Assembly: GCF_030811555.1 (NCBI RefSeq)
Contig: NZ_JAUSQZ010000001.1
Span: 7,313,241 to 7,377,240 of the forward strand
From: Kineosporia succinea
Lineage (GTDB): Bacteria > Actinomycetota > Actinomycetes > Actinomycetales > Kineosporiaceae
Length of the DNA stretch: 64,000 bases
Reading direction: 5' to 3'
Shown in pieces: positions 3,984 to 40,709 of the stretch; position 1 is the first letter of the stretch, and each line of letters opens with the position of its first letter. The notes beneath the pieces were generated by a model that ran no database searches, had not been told where the DNA came from, and saw only the letters and a program-made list of their open reading frames with translations. The translations under genes and the position numbers were made by a program.

Positions 3984-4120
3984 ACGCCCGGGCGCACCGG
4001 TGGGCCGGAACCGGCACCGCTGTCCGTTATCACCACAAAATCCGGCCCCCGGCTGACGTTCTCGCGACACCCGGCCCTGCGCCCCTTTGCGTGACAGCCT
4101 CCCCCGTGCCAGCATGGCCC

Positions 4121-4146
4121 CGTCAATCTAAACGTATAGATTGACG
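4121..4146. promoter_or_regulatory. Palindromic operator upstream of sugar ABC operon
   Basis: Two perfect 10-bp arms, CGTCAATCTA and TAGATTGACG, flank the 6-bp centre AACGTA, which holds the central CG usual in LacI-family sites. The site ends 25 bp before the GTG start of the lipoprotein gene and 137 bp after the LacI stop. It is AT-rich against a GC-rich surround. The best candidate binder is the adjacent LacI protein (2868-3983); the TetR protein is an alternative. Confidence 0.8.
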
Positions 4147-4170
4147 ACTGCGTGTTCGAGGAGGAACAAC

Positions 4171-5439: not shown

Positions 5440-5441
5440 CC

Positions 5442-6326: not shown

Positions 6327-6337
6327 GGGGATCTTTC

Positions 6338-7147: not shown

Positions 7148-7162
7148 CCGAGGTAACCACCG

Positions 7163-8989
7163 ATGCGCATCCCCCTGTCCGACGACAACGGCCACCAGTA
7201 CCGCGATCTCAACGGCAACGGCGTGCTCGACCCCTACGAGGACACCCGCCTGTCCCCCGAGGAACGCACCGAGGACCTGCTCGGCCGGCTCAGCCTGGCC
7301 GAGAAGGCCGGGCTGATGTTCCAGACCGTGATCGAGGTCGGCCCCGACGGCGACCTGGTCGAGACGGCCGGGCGCATCAGCAAGTCCCCCACCTCCGAGG
7401 TGGTCACGGGCAAGCACCTGAACCACTTCAACGTGCACCAGATCGCCACCGCCCGGCAGGCCGCCACCTGGAACAACAACCTCCAGGAACTGGCCGAGAC
7501 CACGCCGCACGGTATTCCGGTCACGATCTCGACCGACCCGCGGCACGCGTTCGTCGACAACGCCGGGGTCGCGTTCTCGGCCGGGCCGTTCAGCCAGTGG
7601 CCCGAGGGCCTGGGCCTGGCCGCCCTCGACGACCTCGACGCGGTGCGGCGTTTCGCGGACGTGGCCCGGCAGGAGTACGTGGCCGTGGGCATCCGGGCCG
7701 CCCTGCACCCGCAGATCGACCTGGCCACCGAGCCGCGCTGGGGACGTCAGGCGCAGACGATGGGGCACGACGCGGACCGGGTCTCCGAGTTCACGGCGGC
7801 GTACCTGGAGGGATTCCAGGGGGCTTCGCTGTCGAGCACCAGCGTTGCCTGCACCACCAAGCACTTTCCCGGGGGCGGACCCCAGAAGGACGGGGAGGAC
7901 GCGCATTTCCCGTACGGACGCGAGCAGGTCTACCCGGGTGGGATGTTCGACTACCACCTGAAGCCGTTCCGGGAGGCCATCGCCCGGGGCACGGCCGCGA
8001 TGATGCCGTACTACGGGATGCCGATCGACCTGACCGTGGGCGGCGAGAAGATCGAGGAGGTCGGGTTCGGCTTCAGCCGCCAGATCGTGACCGGTCTGCT
8101 GCGTGAGGAGCTGGGCTACGACGGGGTCGTGGTCACCGACTGGGAGCTCGTCAACGACAACCACGTGGGCGAGCAGGTGCTGCCGGCACGGGCCTGGGGC
8201 GTGGAGTCGCTCACCCCGTCGCAGCGTCTGGCGAAGATCATCGACGCCGGGTGCGACCAGTTCGGTGGTGAGGAATGCACCGATCTGCTGGTCGATCTCG
8301 TGGAGAACGGGGAGGTCTCCGAGGCCCGGCTCGACGAGTCGGTGCGCCGGCTGCTGCTGGTGAAGTTCCGGCTCGGGCTGTTCGACGACCCGTTCGTGGA
8401 CGTGGACGCGGCGGAGCGGATCGTGGGGCGGGCGGACTTCCGGCGCCAGGGGTTCGAGGCCCAGGCCGAGTCCACCACCGTCCTGGTGAACCGGGAGGCG
8501 ACCCTGCCCCTCGCGTCCAGCATTCGCGTCTACAGCGAGAACGTGCGCCCGGAGCAGGTTTCCGAGTGGGCGCAACCGGTCGCCACGCCGGAGCAGGCGG
8601 ACGTGGCCGTGGTGCGGCTCCTGGCCCCGTTCGAGCCGCGCGACGACCTGTTCCTGGAGGCCTGGTTCCACCAGGGCTCGCTCGACTTCCCGCCCGGGCT
8701 GGTGCACCGGCTGTCGCGGATCGCGGAGCACTGCCCGCTCGTCGTGGTCGTGACCCTCGACCGGCCGGCGATTCTCACGCCGCTGGTGCCCTTCGTGTCG
8801 GCCCTCGTCGCCGACTACGGCAGTTCGGACGCGGCGGTGCTGGCGGCCCTGCGGGGCAGGATCGCACCGCGAGGGCGGCTGCCGATCGAGATCCCGCGGT
8901 CGATGGACGCGGTGCGCGCCTCGCGGGCCGATGTTCCCGGTGACACCGAGAACCCGCTTTTCCCGGTGCACTTCGGCCTGACGATCTAG
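7163..8989 (+). CDS. GH3 family beta-glycosidase, cytoplasmic
   Basis: Second GH3 enzyme of the locus, 608 residues, with no signal peptide. The N-terminus DLNGNGVLDPYEDTRLSPEE is followed by the GH3 barrel. It has the KHFPGGG motif (K233, H234) and the nucleophile Asp326 in VVVTDWE, then the alpha/beta sandwich domain ending near RGRLPIEIPRS. It lacks the C-terminal fibronectin-like domain present in the first GH3 protein of the window. SD and spacing (16 bp after the permease stop) put it in the same operon. It is probably a beta-glucosidase or beta-xylosidase acting on the imported sugar. Confidence 0.93.
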   Translation: MRIPLSDDNGHQYRDLNGNGVLDPYEDTRLSPEERTEDLLGRLSLAEKAGLMFQTVIEVGPDGDLVETAGRISKSPTSEVVTGKHLNHFNVHQIATARQAATWNNNLQELAETTPHGIPVTISTDPRHAFVDNAGVAFSAGPFSQWPEGLGLAALDDLDAVRRFADVARQEYVAVGIRAALHPQIDLATEPRWGRQAQTMGHDADRVSEFTAAYLEGFQGASLSSTSVACTTKHFPGGGPQKDGEDAHFPYGREQVYPGGMFDYHLKPFREAIARGTAAMMPYYGMPIDLTVGGEKIEEVGFGFSRQIVTGLLREELGYDGVVVTDWELVNDNHVGEQVLPARAWGVESLTPSQRLAKIIDAGCDQFGGEECTDLLVDLVENGEVSEARLDESVRRLLLVKFRLGLFDDPFVDVDAAERIVGRADFRRQGFEAQAESTTVLVNREATLPLASSIRVYSENVRPEQVSEWAQPVATPEQADVAVVRLLAPFEPRDDLFLEAWFHQGSLDFPPGLVHRLSRIAEHCPLVVVVTLDRPAILTPLVPFVSALVADYGSSDAAVLAALRGRIAPRGRLPIEIPRSMDAVRASRADVPGDTENPLFPVHFGLTI

Positions 8990-8998
8990 GGGATTCCC

Positions 8999-9967
8999 GT
9001 GCTGCAGCTCGACGACCACTGGGTCTGGGACTTCTGGCTCGCCCGTGACATCTCCCCCGGCATCTCCCGGGGCGGGTCGGAACACCACCTGTTCTACCTG
9101 TACGCCCCGAAGTCGCTGGGCTCCGAGCACCGGCGGCACCGCAACGCCCGGATCGGGCACGCGACGTCGCCCGACCTGGTGAACTGGACCGTGCTGCCCG
9201 AGGCCCTGGGGCCCCGGGGCGCGGGGTATTTCGACGAGACGGCCACCTGGACGGGCTGTGTCGTGCGGTCGGGCGACGAGTGGGTGATGTTCTACACCGG
9301 CTCGCGGTTCCTGCACGCCGAGCCCGAGCACGCGAACATCGAGACGATCGGACGCGCGGTCTCGGCCGACCTGAACACCTGGGTTCCCGATCGGGAACCG
9401 GTGCTGGTGGCCGACTCCCGCTGGTACGAGACGCTCGGCGACTCGTCGTGGCCGGAGGAGGCGTGGCGGGATCCGTGGGTGTACCCGGTCGAGGACGGCT
9501 GGGAGATGCTGATCACGGCCCGGGCGCGACCCGGGGCCGGTTTCGGGGACTCCGAGGCCGGGGTGATCGGGCGGGCCTTCTCGGCGGACCTGGTCGCCTG
9601 GGAGGCACGGCCACCCTTGAGCGCTCCGGGCGCGGGGTTCGTGCACCTCGAAGTCCCGCAGCTGGTCACGGTTCTCGGGCGGGAGTTCCTGATCTTCTCC
9701 TGCCCGGCGTCCGGGCTGTCGGGTGCCCGGCTCGGTTCACCCGGGGGGATCTGGTCGGTTCCGGTGCGGGGTGGCGTCCTGGAGCCGGAGGACGCGTCGC
9801 TGCTCCTGGAGGAGCACTGGTACAGCGGGCGGGTGGTCGAGCACGAGGGTTCGGCGAAGCTGCTGGCGTTCGCGAACACCGCTGCGGACGGGACGTTTCC
9901 CGGGGTGATCGGGGATCCGTTCGATCTGGGGATCGGGGTGGACGGCCGGTTGCGCGTGATGGTGTGA
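8999..9967 (+). CDS. GH43/GH32-like five-bladed beta-propeller glycosidase
   Basis: Protein of 322 residues without a signal peptide, starting at a GTG 10 bp after the GH3 gene with AGGGGA as RBS. The N-terminal WVWDFWLARD followed by HHLFYLYAP is the first-blade pattern of GH32/GH43/GH68-type propellers. The sequence WRDPWV holds the RDP triad region, and HLEVPQL is the likely place of the acid Glu. The end of the gene is followed by a hairpin, so it is the last gene of the sugar operon. It may be an arabinofuranosidase, xylosidase or fructosidase; family assignment is firmer than substrate. Confidence 0.8.
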   Translation: MLQLDDHWVWDFWLARDISPGISRGGSEHHLFYLYAPKSLGSEHRRHRNARIGHATSPDLVNWTVLPEALGPRGAGYFDETATWTGCVVRSGDEWVMFYTGSRFLHAEPEHANIETIGRAVSADLNTWVPDREPVLVADSRWYETLGDSSWPEEAWRDPWVYPVEDGWEMLITARARPGAGFGDSEAGVIGRAFSADLVAWEARPPLSAPGAGFVHLEVPQLVTVLGREFLIFSCPASGLSGARLGSPGGIWSVPVRGGVLEPEDASLLLEEHWYSGRVVEHEGSAKLLAFANTAADGTFPGVIGDPFDLGIGVDGRLRVMV

Positions 9968-9972
9968 CGACG

Positions 9973-10013
9973 AGCCGGGGCCCGGCGCCCGTTGCGGCCA
10001 CCGGGCCCTGGTT
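9973..10013. terminator. Bidirectional hairpin between convergent genes
   Basis: A 13-bp stem with two G-T wobbles (9973-9985 pairing with 10001-10013, core GGGCCCGG/CCGGGCCC) and a 15-nt loop. It lies just after the stop of the glycosidase gene and 19 bp before the end of the convergent gene on the minus strand. There is no U-tract, as is usual in high-GC actinobacteria. Confidence 0.6.
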
Positions 10014-10032
10014 CTTCGTGTGGGGCCAGGAC

Positions 10033-10404
10033 CTAGGCGCGCTGCAGGGCGGGCGACGCCAGGTCGACGACGTCGGGCCACTTCTTCAGCGATTCGCCGT
10101 CGGCACGGTCGAGATCGTAGGTGATCCAGGTGGTGTCGTGCTCGCGGCCCTGGGCCTCGATCGTGACGCCGACCCGGCCGTAGGCGCCGAGCACCTCGGC
10201 CACGACGGCCTGGAGGGTCTTGCGCGGGAGGGTCCAGACGCGAGCCTCCTCGTCCCAGCGGGGGGTGCTGCCGGTGGCGGCCAGGCGGTCGCGCAGGTCG
10301 GCGCGGAACGGGGCCCGCACCACCAGGCGACCGGACAGCGGGGCGGTGATGCGAGGCCGGGCGTGGGCCGGGGACGGGCGGTGGTTCAGGAGTGCGGTCT
10401 GCAT
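10033..10404 (-). CDS. Small HARP/helicase-N-like domain protein, function unknown
   Basis: Protein of 123 residues. Its centre reads RLVVRAPFRADLRDRL, then RWDEEARVWTLPRK. This resembles the F-x-RWD-x-x-R-x-W-x-x-P pattern found in HARP-like and helicase-accessory N-terminal domains, which bind nucleic acid. The rest (DTTWITYDLDRADGESLKKW) is unassigned. No catalytic residues can be named. It is preceded by a promoter and a leaderless small ORF ending in two Cys codons (10457-10534), so its expression may be set by translation of that peptide. Family resemblance is by eye only. Confidence 0.65.
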   Translation of the reverse strand: MQTALLNHRPSPAHARPRITAPLSGRLVVRAPFRADLRDRLAATGSTPRWDEEARVWTLPRKTLQAVVAEVLGAYGRVGVTIEAQGREHDTTWITYDLDRADGESLKKWPDVVDLASPALQRA

Positions 10405-10456
10405 GATGTCTTCGCTTTCGGTTCGCGGGGCCGGGATCTTGAAGAAATCCAGAGCC

Positions 10457-10534
10457 TCAGCAACACCGATTGGTCAGAGCCCGGCCGTTGTCCACGTAAC
10501 GGCGGTGGGTGAGCACCAGCTGCGGCGACGGCAT
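10457..10534 (-). CDS. Leaderless 25-aa leader peptide ending in Cys-Cys
   Basis: Small ORF starting with MPSPQLVLTHRRYVD and ending with NRCC before a TGA. Its ATG lies 6 nt after the -10 hexamer TATCGT, so the transcript would begin at or near the ATG (leaderless). The pattern L-T-x-R-R-x-V-D near the middle and tandem Cys codons at the end match the actinobacterial family of cysteine-responsive leader peptides. In that family, ribosome stalling at Cys codons alters expression of the next gene. The next gene on this strand starts 52 nt downstream (10404). The reading is direct; the attenuation role is inferred from the family. Confidence 0.7.
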   Translation of the reverse strand: MPSPQLVLTHRRYVDNGRALTNRCC

Positions 10535-10540
10535 GACTCG

Positions 10541-10569
10541 ACGATAGGCACGACGGGCGGCTTAGTCAA
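10541..10569 (-). promoter_or_regulatory. Promoter for the leader peptide and HARP-like gene
   Basis: On the minus strand TTGACT (-35, 10569-10564) is separated by exactly 17 nt from TATCGT (-10, 10546-10541). The predicted start of transcription is at the ATG of the leader peptide. The -35 overlaps the stop codon of the upstream membrane-protein gene. This is the best -35/-10 match noticed in the window. Confidence 0.65.
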
Positions 10570-11216
10570 CCGATCCGGTCAAGAATGCGTTCCGGCTCGG
10601 GCGCCCGCGGGATCCAGGGGAAGCGCGCGAAGACCGGCATCATCGGGTGCATCAGCGGGCCGATGGCGAAAGTGGCCACCAGGGTGCCGATTCCCAGGTC
10701 GCCGCCGAGCACGGCACCGACGGCCACGACCGAGACCTCGACCACGGTGCGGGCCTTCCAGACCGGCCAGCCGAACCGCTCGACCAGGCCGACCATGAGC
10801 CCGTCGCGGGGGCCGGTGCCGTAGCCGGCGCCGATGTAGCAGGCGGTCGCGACGGCGAGGAGCACCAGGCTGACGGCGAAGAGCAGCACCTTGGCCGCGA
10901 GCGCGTCCGGCTCGGGCACCAGGGCGAGCACCAGGTCGGAGGCGGGGCCGATGACGAGGACGTTGAGCAGGGTGCCGAGGCCGGGCCTCTGGCGCAGCGG
11001 GAACCACAGCAGCAGCACGACGAAGCTGGTCAGGACGGTCAGGGCGCCGAACGACAGGGGCAGCACGTTCTCCAGGCCCTGGGTGAGCACGGACCATGAC
11101 GACACCCCGACCGCGGCGCGGACCATCAGGGCGATGGCGGCGCCGTAGAGGAACAGGCCGATGCCGAGCTGGGTCAGGCGGAGTGCGTGGGCGCGCGTCG
11201 TGGACACTCGTCCCAT
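10566..11216 (-). CDS. YczE/YyaS-like integral membrane protein
   Basis: About 216 residues with five to six hydrophobic segments. The sequence GIGLFLYGAAIALMVRAAVG near the N-terminus and IGAGYGTGPRDGLMVGLVER in the middle are typical of the YczE/YitT-like membrane family; the biochemical function is unknown. The ATG at 11216 is preferred over a GTG at 11261 because the extra residues are not membrane-like and the GTG has no RBS. It is not in an obvious operon; the downstream small-protein gene has its own promoter. Confidence 0.85.
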   Translation of the reverse strand: MGRVSTTRAHALRLTQLGIGLFLYGAAIALMVRAAVGVSSWSVLTQGLENVLPLSFGALTVLTSFVVLLLWFPLRQRPGLGTLLNVLVIGPASDLVLALVPEPDALAAKVLLFAVSLVLLAVATACYIGAGYGTGPRDGLMVGLVERFGWPVWKARTVVEVSVVAVGAVLGGDLGIGTLVATFAIGPLMHPMMPVFARFPWIPRAPEPERILDRIG

Positions 11217-11461
11217 CCTGAGCGCCACTGGCCTGCCCGGCGATAGCCAATTCGCGGGCACTGGCTACGGGCGGTCATGGCGACCACCCACCCACTCACC
11301 GGGCGGGGTCAGGTGACCGGAGCGTCCGCCATCGGCCGGCGGAACCGGAGCGTGAGCGTGGGCGCGCCGATCGAGTGCCGCGGGCCTGCCGGGGACCACC
11401 GCGGGCGCCGCCGGTTCGATGGAACGGGGGGGAAGGACACACGTTGTCAGGAAGGATCATC

Positions 11462-12250
11462 GTGCACACCCTCAAGCGAATCGTCGTTCTCGCCACCGCG
11501 ATGAGTCTGGTGGGCCTGGGCTCGGTCGGAGCCGTCAGCGCCTCCGCGGCGCCTGCGCCCACGGCCGTGACGGGTGCCTCATCGAGCCTCTCACCGGCGC
11601 TCGGTGCTGCGCAGGTGGTGGGGACGTCGAAGGTGGCGAAGGCGGCGAGGATCAAGAAGACGAAGATCGTCGCGCTATCGCCGTTCCGGCCCTCGGGGTA
11701 TCTGAAGAAGGCCTGGAGCAGTGACGTCCGGCCCGGCACCGCGCCGACCGGCGACGGTGGCAGCGACTGCAGCTGGAGTTCGGTGTCGGCGCTGAACGAC
11801 GGTACCTACGAGTGCGTGCCGACCGTGCTCGGGGCGGCGTTCTGCTGGGCCTCGCCGAAGTACCCGGGACGGGTGCTGTGCCTGGAGTCGGCCTGGTCGC
11901 GTCATCTGCGGGACTACCAGGCGTCGAACCTGCCCCGGACGCACGCGCCCAGGCGCGCACAGCCGCTGGCGATGGAGCTGTCGGACGGCAGCCGCTACGA
12001 GCTGAAGACCGGCGGCACCTACCCGGCGCGGCAGGACGGGCTGTTCGGGATGTACCTGTGCGCGAACAAGGTCTGCGCCTCGAAGGACAAGGACCTCGCG
12101 ATCCTGTCGGCCGGTGGGCACGGTGTGAACCGGTCGAGGGCGGTGTGGACCGTGCGGGTCGGCGAGGTCGGTGGCGGGGACGAGACCTTCCCGGCGCCGA
12201 AGCGCTACCAGGTCCGGAAGGCCTGGTTCATCCGCAACGACATCCGCTGA
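11462..12250 (+). CDS. Secreted protein of unknown function
   Basis: 262 residues from a GTG with GAAGGA upstream. A classical signal peptide (VHTLKRIVVLATAM, then a hydrophobic run, cut near ASAAPAP) indicates export. The mature part holds six cysteines in CSW, YECVPT, FCWASP, LCLES, YLCANK and KVCAS, which could form three disulphides. No recognisable domain is seen. The gene ends only 22 bp before a nine-bp tandem repeat block. Frames starting further upstream (from 11375) add a non-signal N-terminus and are rejected. Confidence 0.75.
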   Translation: MHTLKRIVVLATAMSLVGLGSVGAVSASAAPAPTAVTGASSSLSPALGAAQVVGTSKVAKAARIKKTKIVALSPFRPSGYLKKAWSSDVRPGTAPTGDGGSDCSWSSVSALNDGTYECVPTVLGAAFCWASPKYPGRVLCLESAWSRHLRDYQASNLPRTHAPRRAQPLAMELSDGSRYELKTGGTYPARQDGLFGMYLCANKVCASKDKDLAILSAGGHGVNRSRAVWTVRVGEVGGGDETFPAPKRYQVRKAWFIRNDIR

Positions 12251-12272
12251 ACGAGTCGAGCGAGCTGCCCTT

Positions 12273-12344
12273 GGTCGGCCGGGTCGGCCGGGTCGGCCTG
12301 GTCGGCCGGGTCGGCCGGGTCGGCCTGGTCGGCCTGGTCGGCCG
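12273..12344. repeat. Nonanucleotide tandem repeat, 8 copies
   Basis: Eight perfect-phase copies of GGTCGGCCK (K = G or T at position 9), followed by a decayed ninth copy. The block sits between the stop of the secreted-protein gene and the next gene on the same strand. Confidence 0.95.
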
Positions 12345-12422
12345 GGTCACCGGGTCGCCTGCCCGCGGTCGAATCGGGTGCGGGATCATGGACTCTCGTC
12401 CCTGAGCACCGAGAGGTCCCGC

Positions 12423-13490
12423 ATGACGCCGCGTGCACTGCCGCCGAACGCCCCGCAGCCCGGCTCCCGGTTGCTCGACTCGGTCCTCCCGATCGCCGGT
12501 GCCCCGATGGCCGGGGGCCCGACCACCGTGGCGCTGGCGCGGGCGGTCGCGGGGGCGGGCGGGTTCCCGTTCCTGGCCGGCGGGTACCGGACGCCGCAGG
12601 CGCTGGCGGCCGAGATCGACGAGATGCGTTCGTCCGGTGCCCGGTTCGGGGTGAACCTGTTCGTGCCCGCCCGGGACCGCCCCGACCCGAGCGCGTTCGC
12701 CGCCTACGCGGCCGAGCTGGCGCCCGAGGCCGCGCGGTACGGCCTCGAGCTGAACCCGGTCCCGGTCGAGGACGACGACCACTGGCCCGCCAAGATCGCC
12801 CTGCTGGTGCAGCGGCCCGTTCCGGTGGTGTCCCTGACGTTCGGCCTGCCCGACGTCTCCGACATCGCAGCGCTGACGGACGTGGGGACGCGTGTTCTCG
12901 CGTCCGTCACCTCCGTCGGCGAGGCGCGGGCGGCCCGGGACGTGGGGGTGGACGGCCTGGTCGTGCAGGGCACCGGGGCCGGTGGTCACAGCGCCACCCA
13001 CGACCCGGCTCGTCGGCCGGCCCCGATCCCCCTCGACGACCTGGTGCGTCAGGTGATCGCCGAGGTCGGTCTGCCGGTGGTCGCGACCGGAGGGGTGGAC
13101 GGCCCGGACGCCGTCCGCCGCCTCCTCGCCGCCGGCGCCGAGAGCGTCGCCGTCGGCACCCTGCTGATGCTCACCGACGAGGCCGGAACGACCCCGGTCC
13201 ACCGCGCCGCCCTGGCCGACGTCTCCGACCAGGTCGGCGTTTTCCCCGAGACCGTCGTGACCCGGGCGTTCACGGGGAGGCCCGCCCGGGCCCTCCGCAC
13301 GTCCTTCGTCGACCGTCACGGTGAGAAAGCGCCGGTGGCCTACCCCGGCGTCCACCATCTGACCCGGGCTCTGCGCCAGGCCGCCGCACGAGCCGGTGAG
13401 GCCCGGAATGTGCATCTGTGGGCCGGAACCGGCTACCGCAACGCTCTCACCGGCCCCGCTGCCGACGTGGTGCGCCGGCTCAGCACCTGA
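12423..13490 (+). CDS. Nitronate monooxygenase / 2-nitropropane dioxygenase family
   Basis: 356 residues from an ATG preceded by GAGAGG. It is an FMN-binding TIM-barrel protein, with the entry PIAGAPMAGGPTTVALARAV, the mid-barrel FGVNLFVPAR, the GLVVQGTGAGGHS loop carrying the catalytic-type His, and the phosphate-binding VATGGVDGPDAVRRLLAAGA near the end. Family members oxidise alkyl nitronates and propionate 3-nitronate, a detoxification role. It seems to be a single-gene unit. Upstream codons in the same frame run through the nine-bp repeat and are not part of the protein. Confidence 0.9.
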   Translation: MTPRALPPNAPQPGSRLLDSVLPIAGAPMAGGPTTVALARAVAGAGGFPFLAGGYRTPQALAAEIDEMRSSGARFGVNLFVPARDRPDPSAFAAYAAELAPEAARYGLELNPVPVEDDDHWPAKIALLVQRPVPVVSLTFGLPDVSDIAALTDVGTRVLASVTSVGEARAARDVGVDGLVVQGTGAGGHSATHDPARRPAPIPLDDLVRQVIAEVGLPVVATGGVDGPDAVRRLLAAGAESVAVGTLLMLTDEAGTTPVHRAALADVSDQVGVFPETVVTRAFTGRPARALRTSFVDRHGEKAPVAYPGVHHLTRALRQAAARAGEARNVHLWAGTGYRNALTGPAADVVRRLST

Positions 13491-31974: not shown

Positions 31975-32077
31975 GTCCCGAGCCTGCCCGCCGCCCGTCG
32001 CCCGCGCGTCACTCCCCAGGACGAAGCCCGCACGCGGCGTCATTCTCAGGAGTGACGCCGGCCGGCGGATCCTGCTC

Positions 32078-32083
32078 TAGCGT
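32078..32083 (+). promoter_or_regulatory. -10 box of the sensor kinase gene
   Basis: TAGCGT ending 7 nt before the GTG at 32091, which supports that codon as a leaderless start. Confidence 0.4.
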
Positions 32084-32090
32084 GCTGCGG

Positions 32091-33434
32091 GTGGACGTAC
32101 TCATCGCGCTGGGCGCCTTCGCCCTGACCACCCTGCCGGTCCTGGCCGGGCTCGTCGACGGGCACGGTCCGCTCGGGGTGATCGCCGCGCTGGGGCTGCT
32201 CACGGCGGCGCCCCTGGCGTTCCGGCGCCGGTGGCCCCGGGCGGTGACCCTCGTGGTCGTCCTGGCCCTGGTGATCGGCGCGCTGGCCGAGATCCGGTTC
32301 ACGGCGTGGGTCAGCAACGCCGGGCCGGCGCTGGGCGTCGCCGTGTTCACCCTGGCCGAGCGCTACCCGCGCCGGGCCTCGGCCTGGATGGCAGCGGCGG
32401 CCATCGGGGCGGTCACCACGAGCGAGATCGTGGGCTACGTGGTGCATCCCGGCACCGACCAGAACGCCGTGCACCTGCTCATCGGGCCGGCCGGATGGCT
32501 GCTGGGGCGGGCGCTGCGCACCCGACGCGAGGTCGAGGCCCAGCTACGGGCCGAGCGGGCCCGGCGGGAGGCCGAGGCCGAGCGGCGCATCCGGGTCGAA
32601 GAACGGCTCCGGGTCTCGGCCGACGTTCACGACATCGTCTCGCACGCCCTGGCCCTGATCGCCGTGCGGGCGGGGGTCGCGCGGATGGTGCTGCAGCAGC
32701 GTCCCGGCGAGGCCCGCTCCGCGCTCTCCGCGATCGAGGGGGCCAGCCGTACCGCGCTCGATGAGCTGCGTGCCGTGCTCCGCGACGAGTCCCTCGGCGG
32801 TGCCGGGCCCTCGCGGCCGTCGCTCGCCGACGTGCGTCCGCTGGTCGAGTCCACGCGACGCGACGGGCTGCCCGTCGACCTGGTGTTTCCCGACGATCTC
32901 GGGGCCTCTCCCCTGGTCGAGGAGTCGGCGTACCGCATCACCCAGGAAGCACTCACCAACGTGGTGCGGCACGCGGGTGCGGTGGCCACCCGGGTCGAGC
33001 TGTCCGGCGACGGGCGGATCCTGGTGATCGACGTGCTGAACGGCCGGGGGCTGCCGGGCGACGGCTCGCCGGGCAGCGGGCTGGGGCTGGCCGGGATGCG
33101 GCGGCGGGTGGAACTCCACGGTGGTTCGCTCGAGACCGGGGCCACCCACGACGGTGGCTTCCGGGTGAAGGCGACCCTGCCGGCCTCCGGAACCGCTGAG
33201 GAAGGCGTGAGAACCGCGCGCGAGCGCGAGAGAACCGCCGGCCAGCCCACGGGAACCACCGACGAGCGCGAGACAACCGCAGGCGGGCGCGAGAGAACCA
33301 CCGGCCAGCCCACAGGAACCACCGACGAGCGCGAGACAACCGCGCGCGAGCGCGAGAGAACCACCGGCGCGGGCCAGGGCACCGCGGGCGAGCGCGACGT
33401 CACCACAGACGAGCGAGCGGGATCGGCCCAATGA
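32091..33434 (+). CDS. NarL-type sensor histidine kinase with repetitive tail
   Basis: 447 residues. About five N-terminal membrane helices (VDVLIALGAFALTTLPVLAG and following) replace a large sensor domain. The HisKA_3 phosphoacceptor is in RVSADVHDIVSHALALIAVR, and the ATPase end carries EEAYRITQEALTNVVRHAG-like and GLGLAGMRRRVELHGGSLET motifs. A C-terminal tail of about 75 residues has two copies of a 21-residue Arg/Glu/Thr-rich repeat, absent from typical family members. The tail overlaps the response regulator start by 4 bp. The start is uncertain: GTGs at 32052 and 32082 are also in frame. Confidence 0.9.
   Translation: MDVLIALGAFALTTLPVLAGLVDGHGPLGVIAALGLLTAAPLAFRRRWPRAVTLVVVLALVIGALAEIRFTAWVSNAGPALGVAVFTLAERYPRRASAWMAAAAIGAVTTSEIVGYVVHPGTDQNAVHLLIGPAGWLLGRALRTRREVEAQLRAERARREAEAERRIRVEERLRVSADVHDIVSHALALIAVRAGVARMVLQQRPGEARSALSAIEGASRTALDELRAVLRDESLGGAGPSRPSLADVRPLVESTRRDGLPVDLVFPDDLGASPLVEESAYRITQEALTNVVRHAGAVATRVELSGDGRILVIDVLNGRGLPGDGSPGSGLGLAGMRRRVELHGGSLETGATHDGGFRVKATLPASGTAEEGVRTARERERTAGQPTGTTDERETTAGGRERTTGQPTGTTDERETTARERERTTGAGQGTAGERDVTTDERAGSAQ
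33228..33365 (+). repeat. 63-bp in-frame tandem repeat in the kinase tail
   Basis: Two complete 63-bp (21-codon) units beginning GAGAGAACC at 33228 and 33291, with a third partial unit from 33354. Encodes a repetitive charged extension containing GQPTGTTDERETTA. Confidence 0.9.
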
Positions 33435-34108
33435 TCTCGGTGATGCTGGTCGACGACGAGGCGCTGATCCGGGCGGGTCTTCGTGTGCTCATCGAGGCCT
33501 CGGAGGGATTCACGTGCGTGGGTGAAGCCGCTGACGGCGCCACCGCGGTGCGGCAGTGCCGGGCGCTGCGGCCCGACGTCGTGCTCATGGACATCCGCAT
33601 GCCGGGCATGGACGGCCTCGAGGCGACGCGGCACATCAGCGCCGACGCGTCCCTGCTCACGCGGGTGCTGATCGTGACGACGTTCGGCGAGGATCCCCAT
33701 GTCTTCGCCGCGCTTCGCAGCGGGGCCAGCGGTTTCGTGCTCAAGGACACCCCGCCCGAAGACCTGCTCACCGCCGTCGAGGTGGTCGCGGCCGGTGAGT
33801 CGCTGCTGTCGCCCTCGGTCACGACCGGGCTGATCAAGGCGTTCGTGGCCATCCCCGACACGAGGGCCCGTCCCTGGCGCCGGGCGAAGCCCGACGGCCG
33901 GCTCGCCCACCTCACCGACCGCGAGCGGGAGATCCTGCTGCGGGTGGCCGCGGGGCTGTCGAACACCGAGATCGCAGCGGTGCTGACGGTGAGCCTGAAC
34001 ACCGTGAAGACCCATGTGAGCAGGCTTTTGACCAAGCTGGGGTGCCGTGACCGGGCTCAGCTGGTGGTGGTGGCCTACGAGTGTGGGCTCGTGGTCGCCG
34101 GGCAGTGA
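33431..34108 (+). CDS. NarL/LuxR family response regulator
   Basis: 225 residues. The receiver domain has DDE (8-10), the phosphoacceptor Asp54 in VVLMDIRMPGMDG, and Lys in GFVLKDTPPE. The LuxR HTH is at the C-terminus (LTDREREILLRVAAGLSNTE, then SLNTVKTHVSRLLTKLGCRD). The ATG overlaps the kinase stop as ATGA, so the pair is coupled. The receiver-HTH linker holds a basic stretch (RARPWRRAKPDGR). Targets are unknown; its nearest neighbours are the secreted repeat protein and the ddl operon. Confidence 0.95.
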   Translation: MISVMLVDDEALIRAGLRVLIEASEGFTCVGEAADGATAVRQCRALRPDVVLMDIRMPGMDGLEATRHISADASLLTRVLIVTTFGEDPHVFAALRSGASGFVLKDTPPEDLLTAVEVVAAGESLLSPSVTTGLIKAFVAIPDTRARPWRRAKPDGRLAHLTDREREILLRVAAGLSNTEIAAVLTVSLNTVKTHVSRLLTKLGCRDRAQLVVVAYECGLVVAGQ

Positions 34109-34153: not shown

Positions 34154-35002
34154 TCAGCCGATCTTCCAGGCCCCGGCGACCAGGTCCCGGGTGGGTGTCC
34201 AGACCAGGCGCCCCTTCTCGACGTCCTCGTAGGTGAGGGTGACGCTCTGGTGGGTTCCGGCCTTCACGGTGACGGCCTGGGTGGTGACCGGGCGGTGGTC
34301 GCCGCCGTCCGCGTCCTCCCAGATGAACTTCGCCGGCACGACCCTGACGCTCTTCACGGCCTCGACATCGAGCTTCAGCGTGCCCTTTCCGTCGCGGGTG
34401 GTGGCCGAGCGCGGCGTCACCCTGGCCACGACCCGACCGGCCCGGTAGACGCTGACCGTGCTGCCGCGCTGCAGGTAGCTGGCGGGCAGGAGCTCGGCGG
34501 CGCCGTCGACGGCCTTGCCCTCGACCAGCCAGGCGCCGGCCACGGTGTTCTCGTCCGGCACGTAGATGACGTCGCCGTTGCCGACCCCGTCGAAGGCGAT
34601 GGAGACGGTCTTCCTGGTGTTCGCGGCCACGCTGATGCGGCGGTCGGGGTTGGCGGCCTCGTTGTCGCTGCCCTCCTCGTCCTCCCAGATGAACTGGCCG
34701 GCCGTGAACGCGAACGGCTTCTTCGCGTCGACGGTCAGGACGAGCTTGCCCCTGCCCCGGGGGTGCGCGGCCGACGTGACCGTGACGGTCGCCCGGGTCC
34801 GGCCGTCGCGGTAGACCGTGACGGTCTCGCCGCGCTGCACGTACGCCGTCTGGTGCCCGGCCTTCGGGAGAGAGGTGGTGCCCGCGGTCGCCGCCTGCGC
34901 GGTGGGCGCCAGGAACGCGCCGCCCACGAGCATTCCCCCGGCGACCAGCGCCGCTGCGGTCTTCTTCAGCGCTGACTTCTCCTCGTCCGGTGGTGCTCCC
35001 AT
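34154..35002 (-). CDS. Secreted protein with two tandem homologous domains
   Basis: 282 residues if the ATG at 35002 is used. A signal peptide (KKTAAALVAGGMLVGGAFLA, cut near AQAA) precedes two copies of a domain of about 105 residues. Each runs Y-x-QRG-x-TV-x-VYR...FIWED...V-x-AGAW. The repeats differ enough to be an old duplication. The family is unknown. A CTG at 34969, 9 nt after GAGGAG, would give MKKTAAA and a textbook signal peptide, so the true start may be non-canonical. It is divergent from ddl. Confidence 0.72.
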   Translation of the reverse strand: MGAPPDEEKSALKKTAAALVAGGMLVGGAFLAPTAQAATAGTTSLPKAGHQTAYVQRGETVTVYRDGRTRATVTVTSAAHPRGRGKLVLTVDAKKPFAFTAGQFIWEDEEGSDNEAANPDRRISVAANTRKTVSIAFDGVGNGDVIYVPDENTVAGAWLVEGKAVDGAAELLPASYLQRGSTVSVYRAGRVVARVTPRSATTRDGKGTLKLDVEAVKSVRVVPAKFIWEDADGGDHRPVTTQAVTVKAGTHQSVTLTYEDVEKGRLVWTPTRDLVAGAWKIG

Positions 35003-35209
35003 CGCGATCGGGGCGCCGCGCGTGGTCGTCAGACCTCAATATGATCTCCGGACGCGGGTGTACGACCCCTGGGGGATGTCGATCCGCTACGATGGGTGAC
35101 GATTCGGGACGACTCCCCTGTATCGGCCGATCGGCCTAGTCGCGGACATACCGGATATACGTCTCCAGGCTGATGTGGTGAGCTCCCCGCCGCACCAGTG
35201 TTTTCCCTC

Positions 35210-36292
35210 ATGGGAAAGAGCTCACGCAAGATCGCCGTCCTCTTCGGCGGTCCTGGTCCCGAGCACGAGGTCAGCCTCGGTAGCGCCGGGTCGGTCCTGG
35301 CCGAGCTCGACGTCCTCGGCTGGGACGTGCTCGCCGTCGGCATCGGCAAGGACGGCCGCTGGTTCACCGGCCCGGGGTCGCGCGACCTGCTCATCACACT
35401 CGCGGACCCGGAGAAGCTGCCGCTCGGGGTCGCGGCCTCCACCGAGCCCGCCGGGCCGCGCACCACCACGTACCCGGAACCCCCGCCCCGCAGCGCGTTC
35501 GAGGGCTACGACCTGGTGCTGCCCCTGTGCCACGGCCGCTGGGGCGAGGACGGGACCCTGCAGGGACTGCTCGCCACCTACGGCCTGAAGGTCATCGGCT
35601 GCGGTGTCACCTCCTCGGCCGTCTGCTTCGACAAGCAGGTCACCAAGGCCGTGCTGACGGCCGCCGGCATCCCGGTCACGCCGGGCGTCGCGGTGCGCCG
35701 CCGCGCCTGGACGCAGGACCCGGAGGAGACCGGCCGCGTGCTGGCCAAGCAGATCGGTGCCGGCCCCTGGTTCGTCAAGCCCAACCGCAGCGGCTCGAGC
35801 ATCGGCGTCACCGCGGTCGAGCGCGCCGCCGATCTGCCCGCCGCCATCGACGAGGCCCTGCACTGGGACGACGTGGCCCTGGTGGAGGAGTTCGTGCCGC
35901 ATCGCGAACTACTGCTCGGCGTCGTCGGCACCGGCGAGGCGCTGACGGTCTCGCCTCCGCTGGAGGCCATCCAGGCCGGCGAGTTCCTCGACTACACGGA
36001 GAAGTACCGCGGCGGGCAGTTGCGGTTCGACCCGCCCGCCGGGGTCGGCCCCGAGGTGATCGAGCGCGCGCGTCAGCTGGCCACCGAGGCGTTCGAGGCG
36101 CTCGGCTGCGAGGTGTTCGCCCGCGTCGACCTGTTCCTCGACACCCGCGACGGCAGCCTGCTGGTCAACGAGGTCAACACCATCCCGGGGATGACCGCCC
36201 AGAGCGCCTTCGCCCAGCTCATGGCCCAGACCGGGCTTCCCTTCGGCGCCCTGCTCGAAACCCTTCACCAGCTCACGGAAGAAGCCCAGTGA
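35210..36292 (+). CDS. ddl: D-alanine--D-alanine ligase family protein
   Basis: 360 residues. KIAVLFGGPGPEHEVSLGSA is the N-terminal grasp motif, KPNRSGSSIGVTAVERA the ATP-binding strand, and LVNEVNTIPGMTAQSAFAQL the Mg-binding end. The omega-loop reads GEFLDYTEKYRGGQLRF, with Tyr as in D-Ala-D-Ala and D-Ala-D-Ser ligases and not the His of the D-lactate type (VanA). It joins two D-amino acids for the cell-wall precursor. It overlaps murF by 4 bp. The start is ATG 35210 or GTG 35198; neither has a strong RBS. Confidence 0.93.
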   Translation: MGKSSRKIAVLFGGPGPEHEVSLGSAGSVLAELDVLGWDVLAVGIGKDGRWFTGPGSRDLLITLADPEKLPLGVAASTEPAGPRTTTYPEPPPRSAFEGYDLVLPLCHGRWGEDGTLQGLLATYGLKVIGCGVTSSAVCFDKQVTKAVLTAAGIPVTPGVAVRRRAWTQDPEETGRVLAKQIGAGPWFVKPNRSGSSIGVTAVERAADLPAAIDEALHWDDVALVEEFVPHRELLLGVVGTGEALTVSPPLEAIQAGEFLDYTEKYRGGQLRFDPPAGVGPEVIERARQLATEAFEALGCEVFARVDLFLDTRDGSLLVNEVNTIPGMTAQSAFAQLMAQTGLPFGALLETLHQLTEEAQ

Positions 36293-37731
36293 TCCCCCTC
36301 AGCCTCGAGCACATCGCCGTCGCCACCGGCGGGCGGCTCCTCGACGCCGACCCCGAGCACGTCGCCGACAGCCTCGTCGTCGACTCCCGCCAGATCCGGC
36401 CCGGCGCGATCTTCGCCGCGCTGCCCGGTGAGCGGGTCGACGGTGCCCGGTTCGTGACCCAGGTCGTCCGCGAGGGTGCCGCCGTGGTGCTGGTTCCGCG
36501 CGAGCACCCCGACAGCGCCTCGTGGGCCGAGCAGAAGGTCCCGCGTATCGAGGTCGCCGACGTGCAGACCGCGCTGGGGCACGTCGCCCGCGCGGTGCGG
36601 CTGCGCTCGCGCGCCCAGGTCGTGGGGGTCACCGGTTCCTCGGGCAAGACCAGCACCAAGGACATGCTGGCGGCGGTGCTGTCCCCGCACCGGCGCACCG
36701 TGGCCAACGAGAAGTCGTTCAACAACGAGGTCGGGCTGCCGCTGACGCTCTCGCGGATCTCGTCCGACACCCAGATCGCGGTGCTCGAGATGGGCACCGC
36801 CGGCGCCGGCCAGATCGCCGAGCTGTGCGACATCGCGCTGCCCGACGTCGGGGTCGTGACCATCGTCGGGATGTCGCACTTCGAGCAGTTCGGCAACTCC
36901 CAGGACGCGATCGCGGTGGAGAAGTCCGCGCTGGTGCGCGCCCTGCCGCCGGAGGGTCTCGCGGTGCTGAACGCCGACGACGAGCGGGTTCTCGCGATGC
37001 GCCTGCAGGTGGCGTGCCGGGTGCTGACCTACGGCGTGCACAACGAGGACGCGGACGTGCGGGCGACGGGCGTGCGCCTCGACGCCGACGGCCGCCCCTC
37101 GTTCACCCTGCATCTGCCCGAGGGCACCGCCCCCGTCGACCTCCCGGCCACCGGTGAGCACATGGTGGTGAACGCGCTGGCCGCGGCCGCCGTCGCCACC
37201 GGGCTCGGTCTCACGGTCACCGAGATCGCGCAGGGCCTGGCCAGTTTCACCCTGTCGCCGGGCCGGATGCAGACCAGCGAGCGGGCCGACGGCGTGCGCG
37301 TGATCGACGACAGCTACAACGCCAACCCGGTGTCGGTGGAGGCCGGCCTGCGGGCCCTGGTCGCCTCCCGTCGCGAGGGTGGACGTGCGGTCGTGGTGCT
37401 GGGCGAGATGGCGGACCTGGCCGATCTGGCCGACGAGGCGCACCGGGCGATCGGCCGGCTGGCCGCCTCCCTGGGCGTGGACCTGTTCGTCGCGGTCGGT
37501 GCCCGGCCCGAGCTCGCCGCGGCCGCCGCCCGGGAGGCCGGCCTGGAGCACACCCTGGTGCTGGACAAGCCGCAGGAGGTCGCCGCCGCGCTGGCCCCGC
37601 TGCTCGAGCCCGCCGACGTGGTGCTGCTCAAGGGCAGTCGCTCGGCCGGTCTCGAGGTCGCGGCCCAGGCACTGGCGGGGACCACGCCGGAATCGGCCCC
37701 GGAGGAGTCCGGGAAGGTCGGCGCCGCGTGA
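36289..37731 (+). CDS. murF: UDP-MurNAc-tripeptide--D-alanyl-D-alanine ligase (MurF)
   Basis: 480 residues from a GTG that overlaps the ddl stop (GTGA). Mur ligase N-terminal domain (DSRQIRPGAIFAALPGERVD), ATP loop VVGVTGSSGKTSTKDMLAAV, the carbamoylated-Lys region DAIAVEKSALVRALPPEG, and the C-terminal DDSYNANPVSVEAGLRALVA. It adds the dipeptide made by Ddl to UDP-MurNAc-tripeptide in the cytoplasm. The usual actinobacterial murF lies in the dcw cluster between murE and mraY, so this copy next to ddl is probably a paralogue. Confidence 0.93.
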   Translation: MIPLSLEHIAVATGGRLLDADPEHVADSLVVDSRQIRPGAIFAALPGERVDGARFVTQVVREGAAVVLVPREHPDSASWAEQKVPRIEVADVQTALGHVARAVRLRSRAQVVGVTGSSGKTSTKDMLAAVLSPHRRTVANEKSFNNEVGLPLTLSRISSDTQIAVLEMGTAGAGQIAELCDIALPDVGVVTIVGMSHFEQFGNSQDAIAVEKSALVRALPPEGLAVLNADDERVLAMRLQVACRVLTYGVHNEDADVRATGVRLDADGRPSFTLHLPEGTAPVDLPATGEHMVVNALAAAAVATGLGLTVTEIAQGLASFTLSPGRMQTSERADGVRVIDDSYNANPVSVEAGLRALVASRREGGRAVVVLGEMADLADLADEAHRAIGRLAASLGVDLFVAVGARPELAAAAAREAGLEHTLVLDKPQEVAAALAPLLEPADVVLLKGSRSAGLEVAAQALAGTTPESAPEESGKVGAA

Positions 37732-38645
37732 GCACCGAAACGCCCGGCCCGGTCCGGACTCCCGTCACCCACCTGCCGGGCGGCCGCTGGAAGAGCCTCG
37801 CGGTCAAGGACGAGACCCGGCAGAAGTCGGGTGCTTTCAAGTACCGGGGCACCAGCCACCGGGTGGCCGGGCTGCCCCGCGGCACCCGGCTCGTGGCGGC
37901 CTCGACCGGCAACCACGCCTCCGGCCTGGCGGCGGCCTCGGCCGAGGCCGGGCACCGGCTGACCGTGTACGTGCCCGGCACCACCCCCCGCGTCAAGCTC
38001 GACCGGATCACCGGCGCGGGCGCCGAACCGGTGCTGATCGAGGGCGGTTACGACGACTGCGAGCTCGCCGCGCGGCAGGCCGCGCAGGAGACCGGCGCGC
38101 TGTTCGTGCACAGCTTCGACGACGACCTGGTCATCGACGGGCACCGCAGCCTGTTCCGGGAGTGCGAGGAGCAGTTCGGCCTGCCGGACGTGGTTTTCGT
38201 GCCGGTCGGCGGCGGCGGGCTGGTGACGGCGGCGCTGCGCGAGTGGGGCGGCCGGGTGCGGGTGGTCGGCGTCGAGTACGACGGCGCACCGGCCCTGGAG
38301 CGCTCGCTGAGCGACAAGGAACGCGTCACCCTCGACAGCGCGACCGGTATGCCCGAGGGCCTGCTGGTGCGCCGGATCGGCCGGATCGCGTTCGACACCG
38401 CCACCGAGCACGCCCTCGAGGTGCTCACCGTCTCGGACGCCGACCTGCAGGTGTCGATGCGCAAGCTCTGGAGCGACGCGGGGATCCGGGCCGAGGGCGC
38501 CGGGGCCGCGGCCCTGGCCGCCGCGCTGCACCGGGGCATCCCGGAACACCGCGCCCTGTGCGTGGTCTCCGGCGGCAACATCGACGAGGCCACCTGGCGG
38601 CACTGGGTGGAAGGTCCCACCCTCGACCGCGCCGACGCCTCGTAG
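37728..38645 (+). CDS. PLP enzyme of the threonine dehydratase/serine racemase type
   Basis: 305 residues starting at a GTG that overlaps the murF stop (GTGA). PLP-binding Lys38 lies in QKSGAFKYRGTSHRV, the Asn loop is VAASTGNHASGLAAASAEAG, and the phosphate loop is VVFVPVGGGGLVTAALREWG. The fold-type II family includes threonine dehydratase, serine/threo-hydroxyaspartate racemases and related lyases. Placement as the third gene of a ddl-murF operon favours supply or removal of an amino acid used for the peptide stem, for example D-Ser, but the reaction cannot be read from sequence. Confidence 0.88.
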   Translation: MSTETPGPVRTPVTHLPGGRWKSLAVKDETRQKSGAFKYRGTSHRVAGLPRGTRLVAASTGNHASGLAAASAEAGHRLTVYVPGTTPRVKLDRITGAGAEPVLIEGGYDDCELAARQAAQETGALFVHSFDDDLVIDGHRSLFRECEEQFGLPDVVFVPVGGGGLVTAALREWGGRVRVVGVEYDGAPALERSLSDKERVTLDSATGMPEGLLVRRIGRIAFDTATEHALEVLTVSDADLQVSMRKLWSDAGIRAEGAGAAALAAALHRGIPEHRALCVVSGGNIDEATWRHWVEGPTLDRADAS

Positions 38646-38656: not shown

Positions 38657-39319
38657 TCAGCGTACCTGCCCGTGCTCCCAGGCCCAGGCCGCGATCTGGA
38701 CCCGGTTGCTGAGGCCGAGCTTGGCCTGCACGTTGGCCAGGTGCGACTTGACCGTGCCGAGGGCGAGGAACAGTTCGTCACCGATCTCGGTGTTGGTGAG
38801 CCCCCGCGCGGCGAGGCGCACGATCTGCATCTCGCGGTCGCTGAGCACGGTCTCGTGCGGTGTGTTCGGGCCGGGCGGGGCGGTCGCCGGCCCGCTCTGG
38901 CGCCGCTGCAGCAGTCTCAGCGTGAGCGAGGGGCTGATCAGCGCGTCCCCGGCCGCGGCGGCACGCACCGCCTCGATCAGCAGGGCCGGCCCAGCGTCCT
39001 TGAGCAGGAATCCGAGGGCGCCGTTGTCGAGGGCGGTGTCGACGAACGCGTCGTCGCCGAACGTCGTGACCACCACGACGCGCATCGGGTCGGGCGCGTC
39101 CGGGCCGGCCAGCAGGCGGGTGACCTCCAGGCCGTCGAGCCCGGGCATCTGGATGTCGACCATCACCACGTCGGGCCGCAGCCGGCGCGCGGCCTCGAGG
39201 GCCTCGACCCCGTCGGCGCACTCGGCGACCACCTCGATGTCCGGATGCGCGCCGAGGATCATCGCGAAACCGGTGCGCACCATCTCCTGGTCGTCGGCGA
39301 CCAGCACCCGGATCGTCAC
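38657..39319 (-). CDS. NarL/LuxR family response regulator
   Basis: 220 residues. The receiver domain has ADD (8-10), Asp55 in VVMVDIQMPGLDG and Lys in LGFLLKDAGPAL. The LuxR HTH is LSDREMQIVRLAARGLTNTE, then ALGTVKSHLANVQAKLGLSN. It is coupled to the preceding kinase by a 4-bp ATGA overlap. It is convergent with the PLP enzyme gene (11 bp gap). It forms the second NarL-type two-component system bordering the ddl operon. Confidence 0.95.
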   Translation of the reverse strand: MTIRVLVADDQEMVRTGFAMILGAHPDIEVVAECADGVEALEAARRLRPDVVMVDIQMPGLDGLEVTRLLAGPDAPDPMRVVVVTTFGDDAFVDTALDNGALGFLLKDAGPALLIEAVRAAAAGDALISPSLTLRLLQRRQSGPATAPPGPNTPHETVLSDREMQIVRLAARGLTNTEIGDELFLALGTVKSHLANVQAKLGLSNRVQIAAWAWEHGQVR

Positions 39320-40608
39320 GGGCTCAGCTCTTTCGCCCGGGCGGGCCGCGCCGGGCGCGCCGGACGGGAGTGCCGCGACGGGCGCCTCGACCAGCCCGAC
39401 CGGGTCGGCCGACCCGACGCCCCGAGTCTCGGTGTCTCCAGCGGGTCCGGCGTCAGGGGCAGCGAGACCTCCACCTGCCAGCCGCCGCCGCTGCGCCCGG
39501 CGCGCACCTTACCACCCAGGGCCTTGGCCCGTTCCCGCAGGCCGATCAGCCCGAACCCGCCACCGGTCGCGGTGTTCCGCGGCGTGCTGCGGGGGCCGTC
39601 ACCGGTCTCGGCCCGGCCGTCGTCGGTGACCACCACGCGCAGGCCCCGCCGGTCGCGGTCGACGCGCACCACGGCCCGGGTGACGTCACGGGCATGACGG
39701 CTGACGTTCGTGAGTGCCTCCTGGATGACCCGCAGCACGGCCTGCCGGTGCACCGGCGGCACGTCGCCGACCTCGACGGTGAGCTGGGTCTTCACACCGG
39801 TGGTGTGCTCGAAACGCTGGGTCAGGGCCTCCAGGTCGGCGGGCCAGTCCGGCCCGCGGCGCGCGGCGGCGACCTCGCCGTCGTCGATGCGCAGCACCGA
39901 GACGATCCGGCGCATCGACTCCAGAGCCTCCACCGACGCGCGTTCGATCTGGTCGAACGCCGCGCGGGCGGCCGGGTCGGGGCCGGTGGTCAGAGCCGCG
40001 GCCTGCGCCATCACCAGGATGCCGGTGACGTGGTGGGCGAGGTCGTCGTGCAGGTCACGGGCGATGTCCTGGCGTTCGGCGGCGAGCACCGCGGCCAGTT
40101 TCCGCTCACCGGTCTCCTCGCTCTCGCGCAGGCTCCAGCCGATGATCACCGAGACCGCGGCGGCGAAGGCCACGAGCGACATGTAGAACGCGCTGTGCGG
40201 GCCGGGTTCCCGCCACGGCACCGCGACCACGGCCAGCACCAGCGCGACCAGGACGGCGCTCTCGGGACGGCCGGTGGAACGGCGGCGCGAGACCAGCACG
40301 ACCAGCACGAGCAGGCTGGCGGCCTCCATCACCGAGAACTGCCCCTCGAGGCCGCCCCAGGCCGAGACCAGCGACAGCGCCCAGGAGGCCAGCGACACCG
40401 TGGCCGAACCCCACAGCAGAGCGCGGCGAGCGTCGTGCCGGGGCCAGACCACCAGCCAGATCGCCGCCACCACCGCGAGCGACGCCGCCACCGCGAGACA
40501 GGTGCCGACCCCGGCCCCACCGACGACCGCGAGCCCGAAGACCACACCGCTCAGACAGCAGACGCAGACCTGGATGCCGATGCGCTGCAGGAAAGAGCTG
40601 CTCATCAT
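39316..40608 (-). CDS. NarL-type sensor histidine kinase
   Basis: 430 residues from the double ATG at 40608. About six membrane helices form the N-terminal half. The HisKA_3 motif is DIARDLHDDLAHHVTGILVM, the ATPase parts are AVLRVIQEALTNVSRHARDV and GFGLIGLRERAKALGGKVRA. The C-terminus is a long basic, Arg/Pro/Ala-rich tail of about 45 residues (SRRPSRHSRPARPARPAR). The ATG overlaps the stop of a 34-aa upstream ORF. The sensed signal is unknown. Confidence 0.93.
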   Translation of the reverse strand: MMSSSFLQRIGIQVCVCCLSGVVFGLAVVGGAGVGTCLAVAASLAVVAAIWLVVWPRHDARRALLWGSATVSLASWALSLVSAWGGLEGQFSVMEAASLLVLVVLVSRRRSTGRPESAVLVALVLAVVAVPWREPGPHSAFYMSLVAFAAAVSVIIGWSLRESEETGERKLAAVLAAERQDIARDLHDDLAHHVTGILVMAQAAALTTGPDPAARAAFDQIERASVEALESMRRIVSVLRIDDGEVAAARRGPDWPADLEALTQRFEHTTGVKTQLTVEVGDVPPVHRQAVLRVIQEALTNVSRHARDVTRAVVRVDRDRRGLRVVVTDDGRAETGDGPRSTPRNTATGGGFGLIGLRERAKALGGKVRAGRSGGGWQVEVSLPLTPDPLETPRLGASGRPTRSGWSRRPSRHSRPARPARPARAKELSP

Positions 40609-40709
40609 GCCCGCCCGGTGCGGTCCGTTCTGACGACCAACCCGCCCGGGCACCAGGACGACCGCGTGGACCTGCGCACATTTCCCTGAGTGACGCCCGT
40701 GCTGCTCAC
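40605..40709 (-). CDS. 34-aa leader ORF coupled to the histidine kinase
   Basis: GTG at 40709 with a very strong RBS (GAGGAGGAG, 5 nt spacing). The peptide begins MSSTGVTQGNVRRSTRSSWC and ends RTDRTGRA. Its TGA overlaps the kinase ATG as ATGA, in a different frame from the kinase. The kinase itself has no comparable RBS, so its translation probably depends on reading this ORF. The peptide is polar and basic with one Cys, unrelated to any family that I know. Confidence 0.6.
   Translation of the reverse strand: MSSTGVTQGNVRRSTRSSWCPGGLVVRTDRTGRA

Follow-up and report, generated by a model that had tools for sequence, protein, structure and literature searches.

What is a ligase of the D-Ala-D-Ala type doing beside a MurF and a pyridoxal-phosphate (PLP) enzyme, in a genome that carries other copies of the first two? 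The three genes lie in a 64,000-nt stretch of Kineosporia succinea DNA (positions 7313241-7377240 of a genome of 8.07 Mb in a single contig), which was analysed as a whole and is called here the window. They form an operon of ddl, murF and a gene of PALP fold, and the set is accessory, not housekeeping. I give even chances to the reading that it is a regulated, van-like accessory cassette, probably inducible, that alters the peptidoglycan precursor by making and installing D-Ala-D-X, where X is perhaps D-Ser, which is one candidate only. The operon and the convergent genes next to it are as follows.

35210-36292, forward strand: ddl, putative D-Ala-D-X ligase, 360 amino acids (PF07478, TIGR01205).
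36289-37731, forward strand: murF, apparently dedicated, with intact P-loop, 480 amino acids (TIGR01143).
37728-38645, forward strand: PLP gene of PALP fold, 305 amino acids (PF00291, fold-type II).
38657-39319, reverse strand: response regulator of the GerE/NarL type, convergent to the operon (GerE domain; 80% identical to the copy in K. rhizophila).
39316-40653, reverse strand: sensor histidine kinase, convergent to the operon (HisKA_3 domain; 53% identical to the copy in K. rhizophila).

The operon is confirmed as a real one and not a chance arrangement. An earlier reading from the sequence alone (the sequence-only reading) had described three genes overlapping by 4 bp each, and the coordinates, the families and the junctions all agree with it: at both the ddl/murF and the murF/PALP junctions the start overlaps the preceding stop in a GTGA. 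The Ddl scores 171 bits against PF07478 and 275 bits against TIGR01205 (cut-off 246), the MurF 399.5 bits against TIGR01143 (cut-off 288.6) and the PLP protein 201.6 bits against PF00291 (cut-off 35). The arrangement is more than chance because the order of the genes and their 4-bp overlaps (there TTGA and ATGA) recur in a second species, Kineosporia rhizophila JCM 9960, with identities of 71% for Ddl, 74% for MurF and 76% for PALP and with the same convergent two-component pair. No 10-mer upstream of ddl is shared by the two species; in the window there is an alternative in-frame GTG for ddl upstream, at 35198. Ddl, murF and PALP alone make up the operon of the window, flanked by a divergent gene on one side and by the convergent regulator on the other, the end of which lies 11 bases from the PALP stop.

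The PLP protein, judged by its sequence, belongs to a subfamily of PALP proteins that is linked to Ddl in two genera. The best of the 378 plasmid records that match it is pGD02.2.2 of Rhodococcus rhodochrous (42.5% identity), where the PALP gene has a Ddl-family gene immediately in front of it and a VanX-family gene two places behind it. The full string there (3842-7263 of the stretch opened) consists of a Ddl-family gene (PF07478, 98 bits), the PALP gene, a C39-like gene whose weak match falls below the cut-off and, last, a peptidase of the M15/VanX family (PF01427, 72 bits). In this string neighbouring genes overlap or are spaced by no more than 7 bases, and none of the nine features annotated on the stretch is a MurF. 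The Rhodococcus Ddl is only 29% identical to that of the window, and its omega-loop reads EAKH, with a His in place of the Tyr of D-Ala-D-Ala ligases. In a tree of 38 rows, comprising three clade members and 35 comparison sequences (the same set that was used for the residue counts below, with four distant rows left out), the PALP proteins of the window, of K. rhizophila and of Rhodococcus form one clade (ultrafast bootstrap 100, Shimodaira-Hasegawa approximate likelihood ratio test 99). Linkage to Ddl was seen at this one locus among the four plasmid matches whose surroundings were opened, and no relative of Ddl, MurF or VanX was found within flanks of about 1.5 kb at 36 other PALP loci.

The active site of the clade offers a second indication of what its members may do. 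The lysine at the PLP site (K38, the Schiff-base position), the tetraglycine loop (GGGG, 161-164) and the SGGN (281-284) of the fold-type II serine racemase are all present in the window protein. The remaining positions were mapped by way of a separate paralogue in the same genome (705307-706125; 1501-2319 of the locus designated L020), which aligns end to end with the structure 1v71 as its best match, at 361 bits. I take 1v71 to be the serine racemase of Schizosaccharomyces pombe, in agreement with the PPYD loop given for that enzyme in a review; the genome thus also encodes a conventional serine-racemase-like enzyme. By this mapping T60 corresponds to the re-face base, Ser84 of human serine racemase, H128-S129-F130-D131 to loop positions 152-155, and C111 to R135. 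Four residues are common to all three clade members: T60 (in the 35 others, A 30, G 2, S 3), S129 (P 20, A 14, S 1), H139 (Q 34, A 1) and C111 (A 28, R 3, C 2, S 1, T 1), and the motifs STGNH and GH[RT]S occur in all three and in none of the 35.

What such residues do is known in part from mammalian enzymes. Human serine racemase loses racemisation in the mutants S84A, S84D and S84N, S84T being the sole tested mutant at this position that still racemises, with a tenfold loss, and mouse serine racemase with Ser153 (P153S) has a kcat ratio of racemisation to elimination of 23:1, as compared to 1:2.3 in the wild type (both as reported in PMC6424897). The clade would therefore have both the hydroxyl that racemisation requires at the base position and, in the loop, a Ser conducive to racemisation, from which I infer a racemase-like active site. 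Asp at position 155 is also said to favour racemisation, although spSR, the S. pombe enzyme, mostly eliminates with its PPYD (PMC6424897); the position is uninformative here, 34 of the 35 comparison rows having Asp as well. Aspartate is a less likely substrate, since R135, which handles acidic substrates, is replaced by C111. The proposal that the PLP enzyme belongs to the serine racemase family thus keeps its racemase-like active site and gains a Ddl-linked subfamily, and it gives way on the profiles, the best of which are those of dehydratases. A structure model of the protein, built on a two-row alignment, was unusable (mean predicted local distance difference test score 45.9).

The Ddl itself says less about X. 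It keeps E18, KP..SGSS, EKY, ARVD and NEVNT, and together with the K. rhizophila protein it forms a long branch of its own (support 100/100) outside a clade of 13 rows that includes the housekeeping DdlA (99/98), in a tree from which four rows were left out (G012_x, G006_x, G002_parB and G001_parB). The claim that its omega-loop has the Tyr of an EKY holds, residues 263-266 being T-E-K-Y, and so does the conclusion drawn from it, that the ligase is not of the VanA-like D-lactate type: where the window ligase has EKY, the VanA proteins from three vanHAX loci read IHQE, and the D-lactate reading was set aside on this ground. Near the second-substrate site the window Ddl has SAFA as compared to S-x-x-P in the other 27 rows, a weak sign, as one ordinary Ddl row also has Ala after the Ser. 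Against the curated models of ligases with altered specificity it remains below the cut-offs (VanG 252.8 of 495 bits, D_ala_D_ser 202.4 of 520, VanC 160.5 of 650). The portion available of a paper on the VanC2 ligase (PMC12004154) gives no recognition residues for such ligases, and specificity for the second substrate is unreadable from the sequence of this Ddl.

Of the other explanations the strongest is that the operon is a spare or stress-induced branch for making plain D-Ala-D-Ala when the housekeeping enzymes are inhibited, with the PALP protein a serine/threonine dehydratase that shifts amino acid pools or clears away an amino acid that interferes. I regard it as unlikely but as a serious competitor. 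The retention of the EKY omega-loop of D-Ala-D-Ala ligases speaks for it, as do the family models: the PLP protein matches 31 NCBIfam models, the 25 listed all below cut-off, and the top ones are serine/threonine dehydratases and threonine ammonia-lyases. T60 and S129, however, depart from the dehydratase pattern towards that of racemases, and the Rhodococcus member of the subfamily sits with a VanX-like peptidase, which would destroy D-Ala-D-Ala. Several further points weigh with the dehydratase models against a cassette for D-Ala-D-X. Among protein structures the PLP protein matches threonine dehydratases best, followed by serine dehydratases and serine racemases; racemases usually have Ser, not Thr, at the re-face base, and S84T costs about tenfold in racemisation; the clade has three members, one of them long-branched and flagged as unsure by the program, and the tree was built on data that included the motif columns; the Ddl has no D-Ser-type signature that could be tested; and there is no VanX, VanY or VanXY within the operon.

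An improbable alternative is that D-Ala-D-X is made for a product other than the cell wall (dipeptide, nucleotide-peptide or polymer), Ddl and MurF having been recruited as amino acid ligases. It draws on K. rhizophila, where a gene of the PGA_cap/CapA type with a lipoprotein-like start (approximately 10198-11069 of its locus) overlaps the end of PALP by 4 bp. The window, however, lacks this fourth gene, leaving just the 11 bases before the convergent regulator, and its MurF is well over the family cut-off with an intact P-loop. With the K. rhizophila copy this MurF forms a clade (100/99) separate from the MurFs of the dcw cluster, from those linked to vanHAX and from the type found at 2.508 Mb.

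That the set is accessory follows from its distribution, since the window type was found in only two of the six Kineosporia genomes, K. succinea and K. rhizophila, with the proviso that five of the six are drafts, so absences may be gaps in assembly. Among 58 related genomes, its own included, the same two alone have a close relative of the PLP protein (75% identical in K. rhizophila), the next best being a match of 40% identity (E 7e-41). The sequence-only reading had wondered whether these were the only ddl and murF of the genome. They are not. PF07478 finds 11 matches, of which four are strong (at least 164 bits): the window and three others at 0.58, 2.36 and 2.44 Mb. By eye, the first of the three has the DUF3515/ThiL-like neighbourhood also seen in an annotated Tsukamurella record and the last stands beside parB; the Ddl at 2.36 Mb lies downstream of VanX-like and Alr genes. 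TIGR01143 finds eight matches, three of them over the cut-off: the window, which has the top score, 2.508 Mb and 2.356 Mb. A murF in the dcw cluster, which the same reading thought worth seeking, was not found: at about 4.664 Mb mraY comes next after murE, without an intervening murF (9374-9550 of that locus; names by eye), as compared to six of seven other genomes of the family that have one there, and the two other MurFs over the cut-off lie elsewhere.

The MurF at about 2.508 Mb (5151-6608 of its locus) is divergent, with a C-terminal tail containing several Cys, and occurs in all six Kineosporia genomes, with a similar protein (57%) in one further genome, G010; the type at 2.356 Mb occurs in five of the six and that of the window in two. 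It is hardly credible, then, and was set aside on the two-in-six distribution, that the window holds the housekeeping ddl and murF relocated from the dcw cluster, which would account for the cluster without murF and for the top TIGR01143 score: the module was not found in four of the six genomes, one of which shows only the 2.508-Mb type of MurF, and both proteins branch apart from the DdlA and dcw MurF of the family.

A second accessory set was seen at approximately 2.355-2.362 Mb (6548-12778 of its locus), with a MurF divergent from VanX-like, Alr and Ddl genes, a histidine kinase and a regulator. It is present in five of the six Kineosporia genomes, and in another genus 11 of the 12 genomes have VanX-like/Alr/Ddl as well. 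Its MurF clusters with those linked to vanHAX (93/97), and the P-loop of this MurF is off consensus in the window genome alone, four relatives retaining it.

The idea that a PALP enzyme might replace VanH or VanT is already in print. According to PMC8698665 (2021), a putative pdx operon of Micromonosporales joins a PALP-like and a Ddl-like gene to a VanX-like one, accompanied by a pair resembling vanRS, and its authors propose a remodelling of the precursor like that of D-Ala-D-Ser, which they state to be untested. The window likewise pairs a PALP-like (serine/threonine dehydratase-like) gene with a Ddl-like gene and a two-component pair, but it has MurF in place of the VanX-like dipeptidase, and its pair is of the NarL/GerE and HisKA_3 kind (the comparison is with the published description, not with protein sequences). 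The suggestion of a fold-type II enzyme instead of VanT holds as to the fold, the PLP gene being PF00291, and was anticipated as an idea by the pdx operon. The locus on pGD02.2.2 is alike in having a PALP that belongs to the clade, shares its motif residues and adjoins a Ddl-family gene, and differs in its VanX-like gene where the window has MurF and in its far diverged Ddl. New here are the replacement of VanX by MurF, the resemblance of the active-site signature to that of racemases, and the link to Rhodococcus; neither the MurF arrangement nor the argument from the active site was found in the open-licence literature searched.

The VanC/E/G cassettes resemble the window in the proposed logic, a racemase giving D-Ser and a ligase making D-Ala-D-Ser. 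The likeness to that type, as first suggested, is borne out in part: the set is accessory and its racemase-like PLP enzyme is linked to Ddl, but this enzyme is of fold-type II and not the fold-type III of VanT, there is no VanX or VanXY and an extra MurF, and the ligase falls far short of the VanC, VanG and D-Ala-D-Ser cut-offs. With vanHAX and vanI the window shares a MurF gene beside a van-like ligase. Such murF genes are described in several orders (PMC8698665) and in vanI clusters (PMC4229326), and two of the eight vanHAX loci fetched have one. In contrast to vanHAX, the window operon has neither VanH nor VanX, its ligase is not of the VanA type, and the two vanHAX MurFs fall in a clade that does not include its MurF.

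Wider searches covered further genomes, plasmids and viruses. Among twelve Kineosporiales genomes surveyed, the available part of PMC8698665 notes only a vanRSY set, in Pseudokineococcus. In 394 genomes of the class, with the five best candidates per genome scored, one PALP match reaches E 1e-48, that of the window genome itself; 87 of the genomes have a Ddl relative with an E value of 1e-62 or lower, and the 29 Ddl loci examined outside the window genome have no relative of MurF, PALP or VanX in their flanks. PF01427 has matches in 48 of the 394 (49 rows), and the 30 loci examined include no pdx-type locus, those with a Ddl neighbour all having VanH and VanA and none a PALP. In the 12 genomes of the other genus mentioned above, the eight strong PF01427 matches are all vanHAX and the 11 weaker all VanX-like/Alr/Ddl. 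Five Ddl matches that were opened have no annotated PALP, in gene tables that are incomplete; two others supplied only their ligase. Viral contigs gave 105 pattern matches and no relative, and phages 19 matching records, of which the 15 listed are all below 60% identity.

Three further observations concern the surroundings of the operon. The divergent gene upstream of ddl (34154-35002, reverse strand) encodes a secreted-looking protein of 282 amino acids, the two halves of which resemble each other and which matches nothing in Pfam. Beyond it lies a further two-component pair (32052-34108), for which the 19 kb of the K. rhizophila locus has no counterpart of its own. Neither the genes listed for the window (names by eye) nor the eight neighbours scanned against Pfam suggest an antibiotic gene cluster.

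In the cassette for D-Ala-D-X proposed at the outset, X would be a D-amino acid supplied by the PALP enzyme. Racemisation of an L-amino acid (L-Ser, for example) is its most likely source; K38 would hold the PLP, and T60 would donate the proton from the opposite face. Ddl would then join D-Ala to X, the dedicated MurF would add D-Ala-D-X to UDP-MurNAc-tripeptide, and the convergent two-component pair would switch the set on under some envelope stress. This reading is van-like because PALP (supplying X), Ddl and MurF, next to a two-component pair, follow with other parts the same scheme as VanH or VanT, ligase and VanX, and because the place of MurF in Kineosporia is taken in Rhodococcus by a VanX-like gene. 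As a speculation, dependence of the genus on a very divergent MurF may be the reason for a dedicated one, and a D-Ala-D-Ala peptidase could, equally speculatively, come from the locus at 2.36 Mb. More tentative still, with the chances somewhat against it, is that these operons represent a new van-like class, in which a racemase arose in the threonine dehydratase fold and works with a divergent Ddl and a dedicated MurF (in Rhodococcus, a VanX-like peptidase). By analogy, and with the same reserve, it might correspond to VanT with VanC or VanH with VanA, built from other parts and in one case borne on a plasmid.

The genome as it stands shows a soil genus with layered repertoires of Ddl and MurF: two Ddl in housekeeping-like positions, a divergent and relocated MurF, and two separate accessory sets of Ddl and MurF. 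If the PALP enzyme is a racemase, the switching of precursors gains another means of supplying the terminal residue, besides VanH for D-lactate and VanT for D-serine. The speculation attached to pdx would then become a testable subfamily of enzymes with named residues, one copy of which is carried on a Rhodococcus plasmid.

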